Source: Saururus chinensis
Lineage: Eukaryota; Streptophyta; Magnoliopsida; Piperales; Saururaceae
Direction of reading: 5' to 3'
Length of the DNA stretch: 64,000 nucleotides
Assembly: GCA_035235625.1 (NCBI GenBank)
Contig: CP141141.1
Span: 17,667,968-17,731,967 of the forward strand
Position numbers and translations under genes: made by a program. Below, one piece after another: positions 16,491 to 64,000 of the stretch (the first letter of the stretch is position 1; each line of letters starts with the position of its first letter). The notes beneath the pieces are model-generated. The model had not been told where the DNA came from and did not search any database. It worked only from the letters and a program-made list of their open reading frames with translations.

Positions 16491-16639
16491 GGGGTATTGA
16501 CTGTTTGCACTCCCGTCGAAATATTGTTTTTAAATAGTTAAAAAAATTATTATTTACTATTTTAAACTATTTTGGGAAATAATTCCCAAAATGGTGTTCG
16601 TTTTTGCCACGCAGGCGCCAGCCAGGGTTTTTTTTTTTT

Positions 16640-16865
16640 TTTTAACGATTTCGTCCTTTCGAAGGACGAATTCAAGTTTAAGCTGATTTCGTCCTTCTAA
16701 AGGACGAAACCGGGTCAAGTTTTAAAACACTTGACTCGAAGGACGAAATCAACTTAGGGTTCTAAAGGACGAAATCACCCCATTTCGCGCTTTCGAGTGT
16801 TAACACGGATTTCGTCCATTTAAAGGACGAAATCAGTTTTACACTGATAAGGACGAAATCAAGTT
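16640..16865. repeat. Cluster of GATTTCGTCC / GGACGAAATC palindromes, left arm
   Basis: At least three full palindromes and several half-sites lie here: around 16,646, 16,684 and 16,800-16,833, with half-sites near 16,740, 16,770 and 16,850. The half-site is AAGGACGAAATC. The right arm carries two (21,207-21,238 and 21,272-21,298). Spacing is irregular and the units are imperfect palindromes, which rules out a CRISPR array. Confidence 0.85.
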
Positions 16866-17056
16866 AATTTTTTTAAAATATCTATTTCAATCTAAATTTA
16901 ACACCTATCCCTGTTCATTCCACATATTCCATTCTCAATTCCATTCCATTTCACACATTCAATGCATATTAACATTATGAAATAAAAACAAACATTATTA
17001 TAAATATTTATCAAATATTATTACACATAAGGGGAGAACATAAAACAACGCAAATA

Positions 17057-19344
17057 TCACAATCTCCTACGGCTTCGACCTCGTCCTCGGCCTCGACGGT
17101 GTTGCACGATCTCCTCCTCATGATCTATCAATTCCGGCTCTGGCTGTGGCTCCAGCTGGGGATGTGGCTCTACCTCTGGCTCTGGCTCGGGATGTGGCTC
17201 TGGCTCCGGCTCCGCATAAGTAATAGATGGTTCAACACGAGCTGGCCGATGTCATCTATAATATAAAATCGGCTCTGCCTCAGCTATATGTGTAGTGACT
17301 CCAAATGATGAATAAGGAGGAGAGCTATGCGCTGCTGAAGACAATGGAATATCATAGAAGGAAGAGTGAACCGGCGGTGTCTGAGCGGCCTCGTGGACAG
17401 GATAATCTCTATAGACATCCGTAATCACCGACTGAAGAAGTGGCAAGCTACGAATGACATCATTATGCTTCCTAATCACCGACTGACATGCTGCTAATAA
17501 CTCCTCGCTCGAAGTGTAGGTGTTAATTGCGTCAGTCAAATGCGCATGAGTATGTCGAGCAAGACGAAGCTATAAAAAAAAAATTTAAAAGTTAGATAAA
17601 TAATTAATAAGATATAAAAAAATAATATGTGCATTAATTAACAAAGTTCTACTTACCAAAGCTGCCTCAGACGCTCCCCTAGGCTGATATGTCATCTCCT
17701 CGATATCGTCGCGGGGCAAAATATATCGTCGTGTAATCGGTAAATACCACTGTATATATGCGCTATGAACATCTCGCGATGTCGTAGCCATCTCCCCTCC
17801 TATAATAGTGGCTCTCCTATCCTCCCATCGAGCGATATATGACGCATGATGTAATGTCCAGTCGGTAATATGGCGGCCCTGTCGAGTAATGCAGTGGATA
17901 TACTCAACAGGAGACGGTGGGACCCCCTGCTCCAGGTTAAACTGGAGCATTAGCCGATCTGGTACATACATCTCTACTATCTCGTAACATATTAATGGAG
18001 TTCGAGATAGCCACACGTCTCGACCGTCAATACATAGAGGAGGTAAGGCAGCCAATACTTCCAGTGAGTACGGCTGCCAAATAACCTATACCATATATAA
18101 ATATAATTTAACTTAAAGAACAACAATATATTTTATAAACACTACAAAAATAGTTCAACACATAACTAAAATTACCTGATATAGCCGTTGGTGGTCTAAC
18201 TCCCCTCTGTACAATCGAAGGACTCCTTGTGGATATTCTGTTCTCTTTCTCCGAACATTCCACCTTAAGGAATTATATTTAAAAAATGAGTTCAACAAAT
18301 TTATATAAAACGATGCTAAAAGTTTCAAGTTTTAAACAAAAATAAAAGCTACCTTGCGCCTAATGGAGCACCCTCGCCTAAGCGACCCATCTCAGCACTT
18401 GGTCATTCGACGTGTAAATGCTCCCACGACCAAAGCTATGTTATAAAATATGAACATATTAAATAAAATTAAATAATTATATGTAAATAAAAATATTTAA
18501 AGTTAAAAATTCATTATACCTGAAGAAGGGTCAGACAGCCTGCAATCCCCGAAGTCATGGCCTGACATGCTTTCCCTAACTCTCGGTATAAAAATGCAAG
18601 AGTGGCACTGCCCCATGAATACTCACCCGCCTTGTCTAAATCCTCAAGGAGGGAGAGATAGGCGACATGTACATGGCTACTCGTCGTATCAGCAAATATC
18701 GTCGCTCCAAGTAGATGTAAAAGATAGGCTCGTGCATACTGCTCGATAACTATATCCGTAGCATCGGCTGGGAGCTCTCGAAACTCCTGTAACAGCCATC
18801 GAAGGCTCACTCGACTACCACGCATAAATGTAGCTGGAGGAGCTCTACCAAGGAGTCTAACTAAAACATCACCATGAGCTCCTCCTGTCGTGCCCGTCAC
18901 CGCATGACCATCACTGCGAAGTCCTAATAGAACTGCCACATCCATGAGAGTGATGGACATCTCTCCATAGGGCAAATGGAACGTCTGCATCTCCCTCCTC
19001 CATCTCTCAACAAGAGCCGTCAATAAAGGCCGATCGAGACGGACGTATCTAAGATGAATAAAATGCCCAAATCCCGCTCGCTCAATATAGGGCAATACAC
19101 GATCATCCACTGGCCAATGGCGGAGATACGTGAAGTGTTCGGTGCACTCAAGGCACCCAGGGTCCTATAATAAATTTATAATTTATAACCCATCATACTA
19201 TATCAGCTAAAAAAATATTTTTTTTAAAAAAAATAGTTATCATACCTCTCCTCTCCAAATAGCTGCTGACCTATGTGTCTCCTGCTGTGAAAGTATAGAA
19301 TCATCGATCGGGCCTGGCCCGTAAGATCGATCTACATGAGCCAT
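17057..19344 (-). pseudogene. Transposon-borne plant mobile domain (PMD) protein, six exons, two in-frame TGAs
   Basis: Exons on the minus strand are 19,344-19,246, 19,164-18,520, 18,435-18,353, 18,263-18,176, 18,085-17,657 and 17,569-17,057. All junctions are GT-AG and the frame is kept throughout, for 619 codons including the final stop. The N-terminal two-thirds is a plant mobile domain (PF10536 type): HRSAAIWRGE, then YIERAGFGHF, LVERWRREMQTFHLP, GEMSITLMDVAVLLGL and, later, LAALPPLCIDGRDVW and SYIARWEDRR. The tail is a run of Glu-Pro pairs ending in an RGRGRGRSRRR basic stretch. Two TGA codons interrupt it: codon 259 (18,403-18,405) and codon 554 (17,252-17,254). The rest is undamaged, so decay is recent or the stops are tolerated. 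Host PMD proteins such as Arabidopsis MAIN and MAIL1 act in gene and transposon silencing; the role of transposon-borne versions is unknown. The start is the first ATG of the conserved first exon. Confidence 0.82.
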
Positions 19345-19441
19345 ATGATCTGCAGACAAAGAATTAAGATCACATCATTATTCAATAAGAACATATGCTC
19401 ATACCTAAAATAAATAGTAATTAAATAGATTAATTATATCT

Positions 19442-19783
19442 TTACCAATCAACAGGAGGATTTTGACATGATTTACTATTATGCCCACTTTGTTTACACC
19501 TCCCGCATTTATATCCCCCTCTACCATCTCTCTCCATAGTTCTACGGTCCATTGTATTCCTAATGCGAACTGACCGTGGGCGACCGGGTTGCCTTGTTGC
19601 TATCGGAGGGTATAATACAAAAGGTATATCCCTCTCCCAATACTCCCAACCACGAGGAGAATAAAATTCTACGGAGTACACATTTTTATAGGTGGACGAT
19701 GTGTAAAACAATGTTGCCAGTATCGGCTCCCACCGCTTTACCCACACGGCAAATCTAGTTTCCACCCAATGAAGGATCATCAC
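19442..19783 (-). pseudogene. C-terminal tail of a MULE transposase with CCHC zinc knuckle
   Basis: The reading frame contains YSVEFYSPRGWEYWERDIPF, a PPIATRQPGRPRSVRIR linker and CGRCKQSGHNSKSC (C-X2-C-X4-H-X4-C). That order, a proline and Gly-Arg-Pro linker followed by a zinc knuckle, is the usual C-terminus of MURA-type transposases. The DDE catalytic and SWIM regions are absent upstream: 19,790-21,000 has no transposase match. A donor-like G|GTAAAG after the last residues could splice it onto the PMD gene about 100 bases downstream, which would make a fusion. It is more simply a deletion remnant. Confidence 0.7.
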
Positions 19784-19789
19784 TCAGAC

Positions 19790-21000
19790 AATCCATTTTT
19801 TAACTATTCTCACTAAATACTTTGGTTTTTTCTTATTTTAAACAAGAATATTGATCTACTTCAAATAAAGTTTTTTATTTGATTTTTTTTAATTAGGTTA
19901 AAAAAACGAGTCTCACATAGACAACAAGAAGAGATTATTATGTGTAATTAAAATATTAGTAGATAATAAATAAAAAAAGTCTTGTTTCGATGAGCTCGAG
20001 CTCATGTTCGTTGAAGGTAACATCATTTGCAAATAGATCAAAATCAGAGGATGAATATTACTCGGGAGCAAATTAATTTTTTTGCTTCTTCTAGATATCG
20101 GTTTCATAGTTTATGATGTTCAAACTTAGTTAACACGTGTGAGTTTAGACTTATATAATTTTTTTCAAAAAAAATTAAAAAAAAACTTTTTAAAATTCAA
20201 ACGCGGTTGGGAGGTTGTGTATAATGTATTCGTTGAAAGACTTTTGGTTTTGGAATGGGAGGTGAACTTAAAGTAAATCGGCTGGAGGTGGGGCCCGGGC
20301 AACGACTCTAAAATGACTTGTCTTAAAAACATAAATACCCTATTCCCAAAAAATTTCAAATGCTACCCTTCTAATTTTTTTAAGGAAAATCGAACCCCTC
20401 TACCACCCTCTGTTGTTTTAGTGCCGCCGACAACCGTAGTTATGAAACTAGACCTGGTTGCGTCCACTCAAAGGAATTGTTTTTTAATAATATCCTCTAT
20501 CTGTGCAACATTAATAGTTTCATTGATTTTTCAAAATATACTAATTTTTTAAAACCCTAATTTAAAGTTAGTTCGCTTTGAAAAACTAAATAGAACTAGT
20601 AACATAGAACGGAGGGAATAATCAATTTAGTAGGATATATGAAGCCTAGGGATTTTTTTTTTACTTGAAATCTTAAAAAGGTGAAAGGAAATTACATGAA
20701 ATTTTATGTTTCCTTACATGAAATTTTCAAATGTGTTAAAAGACATATCTTAAAGGAAATTACATTAAGATACTTTTGAGTAAACACAGGCCAACTAAGT
20801 TCCTTATATCAAACTTAATTAATTTAAACAACTTAAATCAAATCATTCTTGACCCTAGTCTATTTTGCATTCAAGCACTCAGTCTTATTCTACTCTTGAT
20901 CTTAAATGTGCAGACAACAAATTATAAGTTGAACATAATACTGACATTACAATATTTCCTAACTAAATTAAATAGAGAAAATTTTTATATTTAAATTAGG
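19790..21000. other. Non-coding interior of the PMD MULE, with one Stowaway MITE
   Basis: AT-rich DNA with only chance reading frames, apart from the Stowaway at 20,493-20,618. A short GGAAATTACAT repeat occurs at about 20,688 and 20,756. The missing transposase body would be expected here. Confidence 0.5.
20493..20618. mobile_element. Stowaway-type MITE
   Basis: The left end TCCTCTATCTGTGCAACATT and right end ATGTTA.TAGTTCTATTT (reverse strand) with CCCTCCGTTCTATG form inverted repeats about 40 bases long. TA flanks both sides (20,491-20,492 and 20,619-20,620). The CTCCGT-type terminus and TA duplication are typical of Stowaway (Tc1/mariner) MITEs. It is inserted inside the PMD MULE, so it is younger than that insertion. 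Confidence 0.7.
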
Positions 21001-21459
21001 GGAAAACAAGCATACCTAAATCGGCTTGGTAACGAGGCGACACTCAAAATAGAAGTCGGACTCAAAGAAAGCTGGGGCGGACTCAAGGAAAGCTGGGCGG
21101 ATTGACGGCGGGCAAGATCGTGGCGGAGCGAAAAAAATCGTCGCGGCGGAGCGAACTGGCGAGACGAAGAAAATGCGGAACGGAGCGCGGGCAGGTGCTC
21201 TAAATAGCGCGATTTCGTCCTTTAAATGGACGAAATCCGTGTTAACACCCGAAAGCGCGAAATGGGGTGATTTCGTCCTTCGAAAGGACGAAATCGCTAA
21301 AAAAAAAAAAAAAAGCCACGCAGGCTCTAGCCGCCTGGCTAGCGCCTGCGTGGCAAAAATGAACACCATTTTGGGAATTATTTCCCAAAATGGTTTAAAA
21401 TGGTAAATAATTATTTTTTTAATATTAATTATATAATTTTCCCTTTTAAATATTTATCT

Positions 21460-21541: not shown

Positions 21542-22220
21542 TTTAAAAAATATTTTTTTCTCAAAAAATTTATTTAAATAATAATTTTTTAAAAAATATT
21601 TACCAAATTAGACCACTTTGAAAAAAAAATTTTAAAGTGGTGTTCCTTTTTACCACATAAGCGTCAGCCATGCAGCTAACGCCTATGTGGCTTTTTTTTA
21701 AAAAAATTTTAATTTTATCCTTTTAAATGACGAAATCAGTCATTGTATTGATTTCGTCCTTTAAAAGGATAAAATCAATATTATATTGATTTCGTCCTTC
21801 TAAATGACAAAATCAATATCATGTACTAATTTCATCCTTTAAAAGGATGAAATCAGTATTTCCCTCTCCCCTCCTCTCTCTCCTCTCTCTCTTCACTCTC
21901 TCTCTCTCTTCACTCTCTCCACTCTCTCTCTCTTCTCTCCTCTTTCTCTCTTTTCACTCTCTCCTCTCTTACTCCACTCTCTCTCTCTCTCTATTCATTC
22001 TCTTAAAGAGGAGAGAGAAACAAGAGAGAGAGAGAGAAAGAAGGAAAAGAGAAGAGAGAGTGAATAGAGAGAGAAAGAGGAGAGAAGAGAGAGAAAGTAG
22101 AGAGAGTAAAGAGAGAGTGAAGAGAGAGAGTGAGGAGAGAGAGTGAAGAGATAGAGTGAAGAGAGAGAGTGAAGAGAGAGAGGAGAGAGAGTGAAGAGAG
22201 AGAGGAGAGAGAGAGTGAAA

Positions 22221-22251
<31 letters not shown>

Positions 22252-22596
22252 TGAGAGAGGAGAGAGAGGAGGGAGGGGAGGGGAGGGGAAATTAGTACAC
22301 AGTATTAATTTCGTCCTTCTAAATGACAAAATAAGTACAATGACTGATTTCGTCTTTTAGAAGGACGAAATCAATACACAGTATTAATTTTGTCCTTTTA
22401 AAGGATGAAATAAAAAAAAATAAAAAAAAACCACTCAGGTGCCAGCGCCAGCCTGCACGGCAAAAATGAACACTACGTTAGGAAATATTTTCCAAAGTAG
22501 TCTAATTTGGTAAATATTTTTTAAAAAATTATTATTCAAATAAATTTCTACAATTTTGATAATTATTTTTTAAAATATTATTTAAATAATTTTCCC
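21541..22596. mobile_element. Non-autonomous MULE with a CT/GA giant hairpin
   Basis: The arms (21,541-21,720 and 22,420-22,596) are inverted copies sharing AATAATAATTTTTT, AAAAAATATTTACCAAATTA, a palindrome around ACCACTTTG-AAAGTGG and a GTGTTC-TTTTT-CC block. Inside are decayed ATTTCGTCCTTTTAAAGGA palindromes (21,720-21,850 and 22,305-22,410). They flank a CT-rich block (21,860-22,005) and a complementary GA-rich block (22,009-22,285). It encodes no protein; the Arg/Glu-rich and Ser/Leu-rich frames here are products of the microsatellite. Confidence 0.7.
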
Positions 22597-23184
22597 GTAT
22601 TAGTAGGGAACGGAGAGTAAAATAAGATACTAATATTCATACAACAAAAACTTGCACAAGAATTTTGATTGGACTTAATAAGTAAACCCTATACAAAGTT
22701 TATATAGGCTCACTCATGTGTAAACTTTTAATGTAAAAATATCATTTTCCTATAAAATTAGGTTTAGATTAATGAACAAAGCTAATCTTAGATGATAAGC
22801 TCAAGTATGAGTTTTTTTTTCATTGCAATTACACCTTACTGTTGGCAAAATTCCACTTAAACCTCCTACTATTTAAAAGAGGAAATACCCCATGATGTTA
22901 ACAAAACTCAATTGCTAAGAGAATCTTTGGAGACCACAACGATGTGGATTATGCCGAACGCACCACCTCTTCCACCCATTCTCTCCACCAAGCTCCCTAT
23001 TAGTCAAGGCCCCTTAATAATTAAATAAATAAAAATATTCTTATCATTTAAAAAATAACTAATAACAATTTTGTTAGCATAGAAAATGCACAGTTTTCAA
23101 AACATTAGGGGATATAAATATAATTTTGCCCAAAGTTAGAGGGTATACGAGCAATTTTGAAAAGTGATTTATTTTATTAACTCG
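22597..23184. other. Intergenic, AT-rich
   Basis: Apart from the Stowaway end at 22,606-22,619, I see no gene, RNA or repeat signature here. Confidence 0.4.
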
Positions 23185-50344: not shown

Positions 50345-50985
50345 AGAAACAGAAGTGGAATTTTTCGAAATTAATTCCAAAAATTCATCATTGAATGTGA
50401 ATTACGGTTGGAAACGAAATTGTTTAGAATAAATTCAGATATACGTCAAACCCAATTTCTAAGCTTTAAACTAATATAACTCTCTCTCCCGAACTGGGAT
50501 ATGCACATTCTTGGTACTATTACGCTCCTAAATTCGAGCTCTATCAAACAAGATCCCACAAGAGTAGGCAATTTTGAACTTTTAAAGTGGGCCCCACCTA
50601 TATGACATGTTTTTTTAGATTCAAATCGATATGAGAGGTAACTGTTGAAAAATAACGAACTCTATAATTTTTGGAACGGGGGCTAGGAGCCAAAATCGAC
50701 GAAATCACCTCATGAGGTGATTCAGTGATTTCGGCCGATTCTGGCTCAAAACGGCTTGGAATCAACTTCCAGGTGAAATTTTTAATTTCGTCCACCTTCT
50801 ACACACAAACGTGATTATGATAATTCGAGTCAGAATTAGGGTAGAATCAACATAATCTTACTAAAATTCAATACACAAATAGCCCCTAAGATTCTATGTA
50901 AATTATCAAATGCTTAATTCTATTACCTTAAAGAATAAGCATTACTTACCTTGATCGATGATTGATTGGATTAGTTACAAGAGGC
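50345..50985 (-). mobile_element. Reversed LTR-like insertion in the pol fossil
   Basis: The pol match stops near 50,345 and resumes near 51,000. The DNA between, read on the minus strand, has the ACCAAGAATGTGCATATCCC and GTTCGGGAGAG blocks typical of LTRs seen elsewhere in the window (7,266, 44,090 and 53,820). The ends are not resolved. Confidence 0.4.
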
Positions 50986-61989: not shown

Positions 61990-64000
61990 AAACAAAAGAA
62001 AGACTTGTCATCCTCAATGGTATGTAACTTTGAAGTATTTGATTTTATCTTCGAAATTGTCCATATTGTATAAAATAGAAGATGATGAAGACATAGAATC
62101 AGTGTTTGTCATTCATAAGAAGGCAAATAAAGGAGTGTTATTATTATATGCGAAGATGAACGAGGCTACAAATAGAGACAAATCACTATCGCTGGAAAAG
62201 AACCAGACTGTGTATAGTGATAAATCATCATGGTTGGAGAAGATGTTATTAACTTACCTCAACATGGACGGCAGATTCATGCAGGAGTTAATGATATACC
62301 ATTCACATGTGAAACAATCAAGTAATATTTGATTTGAGATTACATGATATTATACTCTTATTGTATTCACAACACTCTAATTTAAATAATAATGTTTATG
62401 GAAACACGATATTTATAATGTTGCATTACTATTGATACAGAATGCCAATGCGATATCTCACATATTCATGTTAGCGTAGAGACGAGAACATGACTTATAT
62501 GAATAGCATCCTATTGATGTCATGATGAAATTGAGAAGCATATAGTTGAATACACACTGTTGAGTGAAATCTCAGATTAGTTAACATGATAATATCCATT
62601 GTAGGTTGGGAGAACTGGTGAGTTCATCTTAACAAATCTTTATTAGACATCATTCATTATTCCAATGTCTACACAGTCTAATATAGAAGGCATTCACACT
62701 AGATTTACACAAATGTTGCCAAAAATGGGTGCATTAAGGACTTTATTCTAGAGTGATAGTTATGATCCCCCATATGGCTATGGAAATGTTGTCATGCAAG
62801 TATTTGAGTAACCGTGGAGTGCTAAAAAATGGAACAAGAACGATAATATTGAGATGGAAAGTATGTCTAGCCATACAGAATTCAGACACAATGAGTTACC
62901 CACTAATATTGACTTTGAGCCTGAGGCAGAGTGGGCCACAGTCGATGATCTTAATGTGTTGGAACCAAATATTGGTGAGGGTGAGATGATGACCGGTAGT
63001 TTGCAAGCAAGGATTACCAAAATCTACTCCAATTGGGTACATGGTTCCAAAGCATGGTACATTTCAAGAGGGTATTGATAAACCTAGCAATAAAGGCGAA
63101 TTTTACATATTGGGTTGTAGATGAGAACAAGAATGCACGTGCGGCGAAGTGCTCCAATCAATCTTACAAGTTGTACATTATGGCATATCACATAGGAGAT
63201 GATGTGATTGTGACAAGGTTAGTGCCTGACTACATGTGTGACATGAAAAGGAAGTCAATTGACCACCCTTTAACATCTCACTTTTAGATTGCCAAAAAAT
63301 GCTATGGCCTCTATAAGATTCCACAAACATTACACCTAAAAACCTAGCGACATATATTTCTAAGTACTAGTGTACAATTGTAAACTACAAGAAATGTTGA
63401 CATGCAAGTAAGGCAGATTGTCTTAAATTATTCTTACACGAGATTTACCATATCGGGGATATGTTTAAACGATTTTTAGAAAGTCGAGTTTAAGAAAACA
63501 TGACTTGTTAATCTGTCCTATAATCAGAAACATGAGAGGGGCACATTTATTCCATTGTTTGAGGGTGTCATTGTTAACTACAACAAATCTTGTCATGCAG
63601 GTAAAGCAAAGTGTTATTTAATCGATGGGGATCCAGACGAATCTTATCACATACTACTTGCATATGATGTTCAAATAGAAAGGATTAATCCTAGCAGTAT
63701 AGTAGTTCTCGTCAAATCATGTGATATTCTAAAACCTAAAGGGGTTTTGGATGTTTGGGCCGATGACAAGAGCTTTTAGAAGAACACTGAATTCATTGTT
63801 AACCATATATGCTACTTTTTTGAAGCAAAAGTATCCCAGTCATCTATTGATAGAAATTGTACTAGACGGGAACAATAATATGTTTTGGGTCGCATTTGCA
63901 GTAGTTGAAAATGAGTGCATGAAAAATGCTACTCCATTGATATATATAAAATGACATATGAAGAAGCTTTATTCCTAACAATGGACATGCACCAGCGGGC
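61990..64000 (+). pseudogene. MULE (MuDR-type) transposase, N-terminal half, broken and cut by the window end
   Basis: Partial plus-strand frames follow the MuDR order: an acidic IEDDEDIESVFV segment (about 62,085-62,125); FKRVLINLAIKANFTYWVVD with RAAKCSNQSYKLYIMAYH (63,063-63,190); DHPLTSHF (63,259-63,285); IVNYNKSCHAGKAKC-DGDPDESYHILLAY (63,567-63,670); and TRAFRRTLN with LDGNNNMFWVAFAVVENEC (63,765-63,925), the start of the DDE catalytic core. Stops and frame changes separate these blocks, for example after 63,287 and at about 63,777. A related shorter motif, IVNYKKC, occurs at 63,370, suggesting a local duplication. The gene continues past 64,000. Confidence 0.7.

Follow-up and report, generated by a model that had tools for sequence, protein, structure and literature searches.

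What does a plant mobile domain (PMD) gene do for the transposon that carries it? The question is raised by a Mutator-like element (MULE) at positions 16537–21443 of a 64,000-nucleotide stretch of Saururus chinensis DNA (assembly GCA_035235625.1, contig CP141141.1, 17,667,968–17,731,967, forward strand; hereafter "the window," to which coordinates without a contig label refer), where an earlier, sequence-only reading had seen a nearly whole PMD gene as the element's main surviving cargo. We found that the element belongs to an abundant two-gene MULE family, laid out as arm–transposase gene–PMD gene–arm, and has suffered an internal deletion. Comparison among copies suggests that the class of palindrome repeated in the arms goes with the PMD lineage and not with transposase similarity, and from this pattern a function for the PMD may be proposed.

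The PMD as a Regular Second Gene

The genome searched comprises 516 Mb in 11 contigs (L-numbers label genome copies or loci and C-numbers label contigs). Besides the window, 149 places match its PMD at ≥86% amino-acid identity among the best 150 of 2272 candidates scored, and the arm search (best 40 of 2261 candidates scored) lists 128 matching pieces, so the pairing of arms and PMD is no chance match; that the two co-occur elsewhere as a family, on which the sequence-only reading depended, was thus borne out. Three full-length relatives (L069, L070, and L071) measure ~7.7–7.9 kb end to end, bear arms on both ends, and encode a MULE transposase (PF10551, E = 8e-19, and PF03108, E = 1.8e-12, in L069; SWIM, E = 2.9e-5, in L070) with the PMD downstream on the same strand. 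Each of the three also has stops or frameshifts somewhere. When the 148 listed transposase matches were paired with the 149 PMD matches (150 minus the window), 59 had a listed PMD ≤6 kb downstream on the same strand, at offsets all within 1295–1422 bp, and no other arrangement occurred among the pairs listed. This uniformity makes the PMD a standard component of the family, its second gene, lying within the arms together with a transposase, and not a special cargo; copies of the family number well above one hundred and fall into two or more deep lineages. A Pack-MULE is a captured host gene fragment without transposase, and we rejected this candidate because the PMD is not missing from transposase-bearing relatives, sitting instead at a fixed place in the full-length ones.

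PMD-carrying plant MULEs have already been tabulated (MULE-Monocots, MDR, MUDRAVI2, MuDR-9_OS, and part of VANDAL; Dupeyron et al., 2019, PMC6446971), and the window element belongs to this described kind. What it has in common with those groups, as far as that account details them, is the arms, the 9-bp duplication where given, and a SWIM or CCHC transposase with a PMD in one element; set against them, the present family has its PMD downstream, on the same strand, in a separate frame with its own ATG. The elements of grasses and Amborella that combine a MULE transposase with PMD-C (Ikeda et al., 2017, PMC5418596) likewise join the two functions, but are described there as fusion proteins, whereas here the frames read as separate. 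We considered a transposase–PMD fusion and rejected it: the transposase frame stops after ..PPVDW in L069, L070, and L071 (TGG TAA in the window), before the PMD, and the obvious donor/acceptor pair would join the transposase to PMD exon A out of frame, with a stop, so a fusion is not supported for these copies.

Origin of the Window Copy

The window element has the long terminal inverted arms of a MULE. Its left arm (16537–16835, plus strand, PMD side) and right arm (21204–21443, minus strand, transposase side) are linked by inverted matches of 89 nt (94%), 70 nt (99%), and 58 nt (90%) between 16538–16834 and 21211–21422, and the 9-bp sequence TTTTAAATA flanks both ends (16528–16536 and 21444–21452), as a MULE target-site duplication (TSD) would. 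The right end is an intact family terminus (GGGAAAATT...); the left end is without ~20 bases that nearly all arms compared retain at the outer edge of the family terminus (GGGAAAATTATATAA..). Because other full copies bear perfect, mostly AT-rich 9-bp duplications at their termini (L069, with one changed terminal base, L070, L071, and L086), the window flank is likely a real TSD despite the shortened left end; a chance flank, which retains some possibility because the family's terminal sequence is itself AT-rich, is disfavored by those perfect duplications. At the ends of L087, no 9-bp duplication was seen.

Aligned with L069, L070, and L071, the window is collinear on either side of a single junction (19747–19750, a 4-bp overlap CGGC) at which ~2.8 kb, holding most of the transposase, is missing; the transposase-side 5′ leader (19751–21203, minus strand) is collinear with these full relatives, at 88–91% identity from 19747 to the right end. 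Of 40 matches scored for a 201-bp query spanning the junction (the best of 786 candidates), one, the window's own, is full, and the remaining 39 end within ~3 bp of that point; any other copy with this junction would be expected to score above such partial matches, so none is evident in the assembly. One deletion with a 4-bp overlap took out most of the transposase, and the PMD was spared by the position of that deletion. It is likely that the deletion followed insertion, though one unamplified move of an already deleted copy also fits and counts against this order of events.

The sequence-only reading had the element moving with transposase supplied by a relative, its PMD frame kept open by selection or recent movement. 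Such a non-autonomous, trans-mobilized PMD element gains something from the 9-bp duplication, which abuts both present ends, the shortened left one included, and from the several deletion derivatives that retain the PMD, each with its own, different transposase deletion (large in L042, L053, and L060; smaller in L063 and L044). We nevertheless regard it as very improbable: the junction is private among the matches scored, deletion after insertion is simpler, and the left terminus is incomplete, for which reason the element's present mobility is doubtful. No sign of amplification in trans was found, the junction being private among the best 40 of 786 candidates and the left end ~20 bp short. 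Taken whole, the evidence is best explained by a deletion-scarred copy of a PMD-carrying two-gene MULE family, and this is probably what the element represents; in itself, the window copy illustrates ordinary decay in an element of a known kind. L060 (PMD exon B at C6:8164715) is a further PMD-only copy, in which an independent ~4.7-kb deletion puts the PMD nearly against the other arm.

Selection on PMD and Transposase

The same account held that the PMD frame had stayed open longer than the transposase. In the window, the transposase was cut out, not decayed, and across the family stop densities are alike. The 30 PMD-anchored copies have 1–13 PMD stops over 554 codons (median 3), so that the window's two are unremarkable beside the other 29, a further point against trans-mobilization with a selected PMD; the 24 of these copies with a full-length transposase part have 0–5 stops over its 397 codons (median 2). 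Deletions strike both genes. Six of the 30 have transposase deletions (L039, L042, L044, L053, L060, and L063) and in the other 24, 394 or more of the 397 reachable transposase codons are kept; conversely, among eight transposase-anchored copies (the top eight of 89 matches without a listed PMD), all keep PMD sequence and two have deletions into exon B. Preferential retention of the PMD is rejected by these counts.

Substitution patterns do not separate the two genes in the way proposed either. Scaled to an intron-based neutral value, the ratio of nonsynonymous to synonymous variants was 0.63 for singletons and 0.29 for variants in at least four copies in the PMD (27 copies), and 0.80 and 0.14, respectively, in the transposase (22 copies); the neutral spectrum behind these values is rough (75 intron singletons, few G/C sites). 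L057, L065, and L068 were left out of this analysis and of parts of another comparison, and L039, L042, L053, L060, and L063 were left out of the transposase counts because their deletions misalign. Private changes are therefore slightly more constrained in the PMD, as the trans-mobilized account would have it, and the widely shared variants reverse the order; neither shows the PMD kept longer than the transposase. Private PMD stops number 23 against 26 expected.

What stands is that the PMD copies do not evolve without constraint. The ratio of nonsynonymous to synonymous divergence (dN/dS) of the window PMD is 0.54–0.90 against eight copies with synonymous divergence (dS) <0.06 and 0.24–0.27 against the two most distant copies, L065 and L068; L057, which is partly misaligned in the PMD, lies off this trend (0.70 at dS 0.26). 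Within groups, PMD dN/dS is 0.59 in C (12 copies), 0.41 in X, whose PMD is of the C lineage (8 copies), and 0.66 in G, the second PMD lineage (3 copies), with L087 added to the set; between C or X and G it is 0.26. The most constrained part of the PMD is codons 1–360, with ratios of nonsynonymous to synonymous polymorphism (pN/pS) of 0.10–0.43 (8 C and 3 G copies), against 0.47–0.66 beyond codon 360, where length-variable Pro/Glu repeats and an RGR end lie. Both sets were taken without L042, L044, L048, L053, L057, L060, L063, and the window. These data show that purifying selection has kept both genes between lineages and that in single copies both are weakly constrained or unconstrained.

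Palindrome Arrays and PMD Lineages

The arms hold arrays of a short motif. With up to one mismatch allowed, the window contains 30 occurrences of GATTTCGTCC where 2.6 would be expected, and the two arms and a neighboring relative account for 21 of them. These half-sites build a 27-bp palindrome, GATTTCGTCCTT-N3-AAGGACGAAATC (C-type), of which a pattern search placed three copies in the left arm (16647–16673, 16685–16711, and 16808–16834) and two in the right (21211–21237 and 21269–21295). All 34 distinct arms in L001–L038 hold 1–6 palindromes, mismatches allowed, and perfect C-type palindromes number 448 genome-wide against 0 for the reversed-letter control. A palindrome with a four-base center, found at five places genome-wide, was rejected, and a pattern with an eight-base center also proved wrong. 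The neighboring relative (~21560–22597) adjoins the element and is free of coding sequence, with two arms bearing similar palindromes, a long CT/GA-rich core, and an end ..AATTTTCCC; a small cluster of one-mismatch GATTTCGTCC half-sites at 50697–50793 is perhaps the decayed arm of another.

The second PMD lineage (G), marked by a 241-amino-acid open frame (L065, L068, and L086), has a G-type palindrome, GATTTCGTCGTT-N3-AACGACGAAATC, a symmetric GTCC to GTCG variant of the first with 264 perfect places. Mixed C/G palindromes number 117 against ~394 expected if half-sites paired at random (simple arithmetic). The 136 distinct palindromes in the retrieved loci outside L039–L068 comprise 94 C/C, 15 G/G, 0 C/G, and 27 with A or T. 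Compared with C-type arms, the nine palindromes of L086 match at 22–25 of 27 bases (mean 23.8), and the other 27-mers of its arms at a mean of 18.8. Most of 25 listed mixed palindromes (e.g., C1:390551 and C1:7162012) have a CTA or CTG center and may therefore mark a third lineage.

Which gene the palindrome class follows can be read from the divergence of the lineages. Between L086 (G) and L071 (C), identity is 90–94% over the transposase gene, the bin over its intron included, 78–86% over the PMD with its introns, and ~51–73% over arms and leader; L065, L068, and L086 all show the drop in the same 100-bp bin, the one containing the transposase stop. Mean C–G synonymous divergence is 0.204 for the transposase and 0.448 for the PMD, and p-distance in the PMD introns is 0.255, while group X differs from C by a dS of 0.239 in the transposase and 0.113 in the PMD. 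Transposase and PMD thus have separate histories and, because introns follow the same pattern, exchange rather than constraint would account for it.

On C1, the contig fully covered by both the C-type and G-type palindrome listings, 14 of 19 listed PMD matches have the 241-amino-acid frame (its use as a G-lineage mark was checked at DNA level for L065, L068, and L086), and in the seven of these with a perfect palindrome in range it is always G-type. Of the other five, two have C-type only and one, L087, has both; nine of the 19 have no perfect palindrome in range. The 19 listed transposase matches divide into 13 G-type, one C-type, and five with none. L058, the one X element testable on C1, has C-type palindromes on both sides, and L086 has G-type palindromes in both arms and, given its perfect 9-bp duplication, moved as a G-type element. 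Together, these patterns suggest that palindrome class goes with PMD lineage, not transposase similarity. L087 (C1:51975300–51983200) is a hybrid, G-type on the transposase side and with C-type palindromes and a C-lineage PMD on the other.

A Possible Function for the PMD

The nearest model for a second gene tied to non-coding motifs is VANDAL21, which has a conserved transposase and a second protein, VANC21, with DUF1985 and variable tandem-peptide regions, and whose binding-motif arrays in non-coding DNA vary in type between related copies (Hosaka et al., 2017, PMC5735166). As in that element, the transposase of the present family is accompanied by a less conserved second gene, short motifs of types that vary between related copies are repeated in non-coding parts, and the second protein has a variable part with tandem peptide repeats (PMC5735166; PMC10398659). 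Motif arrays that change between lineages in non-coding regions, a VANDAL/VANC feature, are thus found here too. They differ in that VANC carries DUF1985 and DUF287, whereas the PMD matches DUF1985 only under cut-off; in that the VANDAL21 motif, YAGTATTAY, is non-palindromic and arrayed in one orientation (PMC5735166; PMC10398659); and in that binding and demethylation have been demonstrated for VANC21 (Hosaka et al., 2017, PMC5735166; Sasaki et al., 2023, PMC10398659), whereas the present family is described from its sequence.

A palindrome class that follows the PMD and not the transposase suggests a VANC-like reader of the element's ends. The PMD protein would recognize the palindrome arrays in the arms and, much as the VANC anti-silencing proteins do in VANDAL MULEs, act there on the non-coding ends of its own element, helping the family escape host silencing; we hold such a role to be possible, and tentatively so. 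The fuller proposal—that the PMD, by itself or as part of a complex, reads the DNA of its own arm palindromes sequence-specifically in a VANC-type anti-silencing system, with PMD and symmetric palindromes co-evolving and the transposase exchanged as a separate module—is doubtful as a whole.

Several observations weigh against a reader of this kind. The association of palindrome and PMD rests on one deep lineage split and might reflect nothing more than linkage or shared ancestry. Symmetry is not absolute, as the 117 mixed palindromes attest, and 30 of 138 other 27-mers in the L086 arms also reach 22 matches. A match of PMD exon B to DUF1985, a domain marked in VANC proteins, recurs in all 11 sequences searched (best E 0.0065, window 0.014, none above 1) and speaks for the proposal, but it stays under the Pfam cut-off and the 11 are close relatives; AlphaFold2 on exon B alone gave no usable fold (mean pLDDT, predicted local distance difference test, 41.5). 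Twenty-three PMD stop variants are common to two or three copies, exceeding the neutral ratio (1.57), which suggests that certain defective copies spread or were hit alike. Finally, transposase binding sites, too, would be expected in the arms.

Mutator transposases bind in terminal arms, where the palindromes sit. The main rival explanation is accordingly that the palindromes are transposase binding sites unrelated to the PMD, with the two classes marking two old lineages and a transposase that tolerates both. This is a serious possibility, if short of an even chance. Palindromes persist in the coding-free relative beside the window element, as would be expected of sites for a protein acting in trans; both classes are served by transposases that are closely similar; and the G-type L086, with its perfect duplication, was evidently mobilized. 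Yet C and X transposases differ by a dS of 0.24 and the X element L058 is C-type on both sides, whereas C and G transposases are no further apart (0.20) and their palindromes differ, and 1–6 palindromes per arm would exceed the need of a simple end-binding site.

The PMD might instead be a passenger, or imitate host silencing factors of the MAIN/MAIL1 type, which act with PP7L-type phosphatases, and have no contact with the palindromes. MAIN and MAIL1 have PF10536 in common with the PMD described here, but are host genes, whereas this PMD is a multicopy element gene. Capture of a host PMD-C by MULEs and its possible anti-silencing use have been proposed (Ikeda et al., 2017, PMC5418596), host PMDs act with PP7L (Nicolau, 2020), and codons 1–360 are the most constrained part of the protein. 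We think this explanation unlikely: dN/dS of 0.26 between lineages and pN/pS of 0.10–0.43 over codons 1–360 argue against a pure passenger, and passenger or mimic alike would leave the joint divergence of PMD and palindromes, without that of the transposase, unexplained.

A review suggests that transposons may produce PMD proteins against silencing (PMC8616336). Neither palindrome arrays nor a lineage switch was found in the parts of Dupeyron et al. (2019, PMC6446971) that treat PMD-MULEs; excerpts of the literature joining VANC and the plant mobile domain yielded no link of PMD to motif arrays, and among the papers listed on MULE terminal inverted repeats, palindromes, and transposase binding, no title names PMD. 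The lineages with close transposases and differing PMDs and arm palindromes form a natural swap, and they therefore make the PMD's use to the transposon directly testable. Were the PMD indeed a reader of its own arm palindromes, that would assign a function to transposon PMDs and hint at how MAIN and MAIL1 acquired their role in silencing.

Genes and Other Features of the Window

The PMD gene has six exons with GT/AG borders on the minus strand: exon A, with its own ATG (19246–19344); exon B, the N-terminal part of PF10536 (18520–19164; E = 3e-48); exon C, with one internal TGA (18353–18435); exon D (18176–18263); exon E, the C-terminal part of PF10536 (17657–18085; E = 1.6e-19); and exon F, with a linker, tandem Pro/Glu repeats, an RGR-rich C-terminus, and one internal TGA (17057–17569). 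Joined, they give 1857 nt, or 618 codons and a final TGA, with exactly two internal TGAs. In these respects—arms, 9-base flank, and a six-exon PMD with two TGAs—the sequence-only reading was accurate. A sequence search of the PDB returned no convincing relative (three matches, best E = 0.33).

Upstream of exon A lies what remains of the transposase (19445–19750, minus strand), approximately its last 100 codons, after the SWIM finger and including the zinc knuckle. The knuckle match is weak (E = 0.025, under the Pfam cut-off), and it is the relatives that establish this segment as the transposase tail which had been recognized from the letters alone. Elsewhere in the window, a distant MULE transposase fragment (63745–63927) is 36% identical to the family transposase over 61 amino acids, and in the wider genome, nuclear copies of plastid rbcL lie at C3:25640723, C6:1018067, and C3:23872385.

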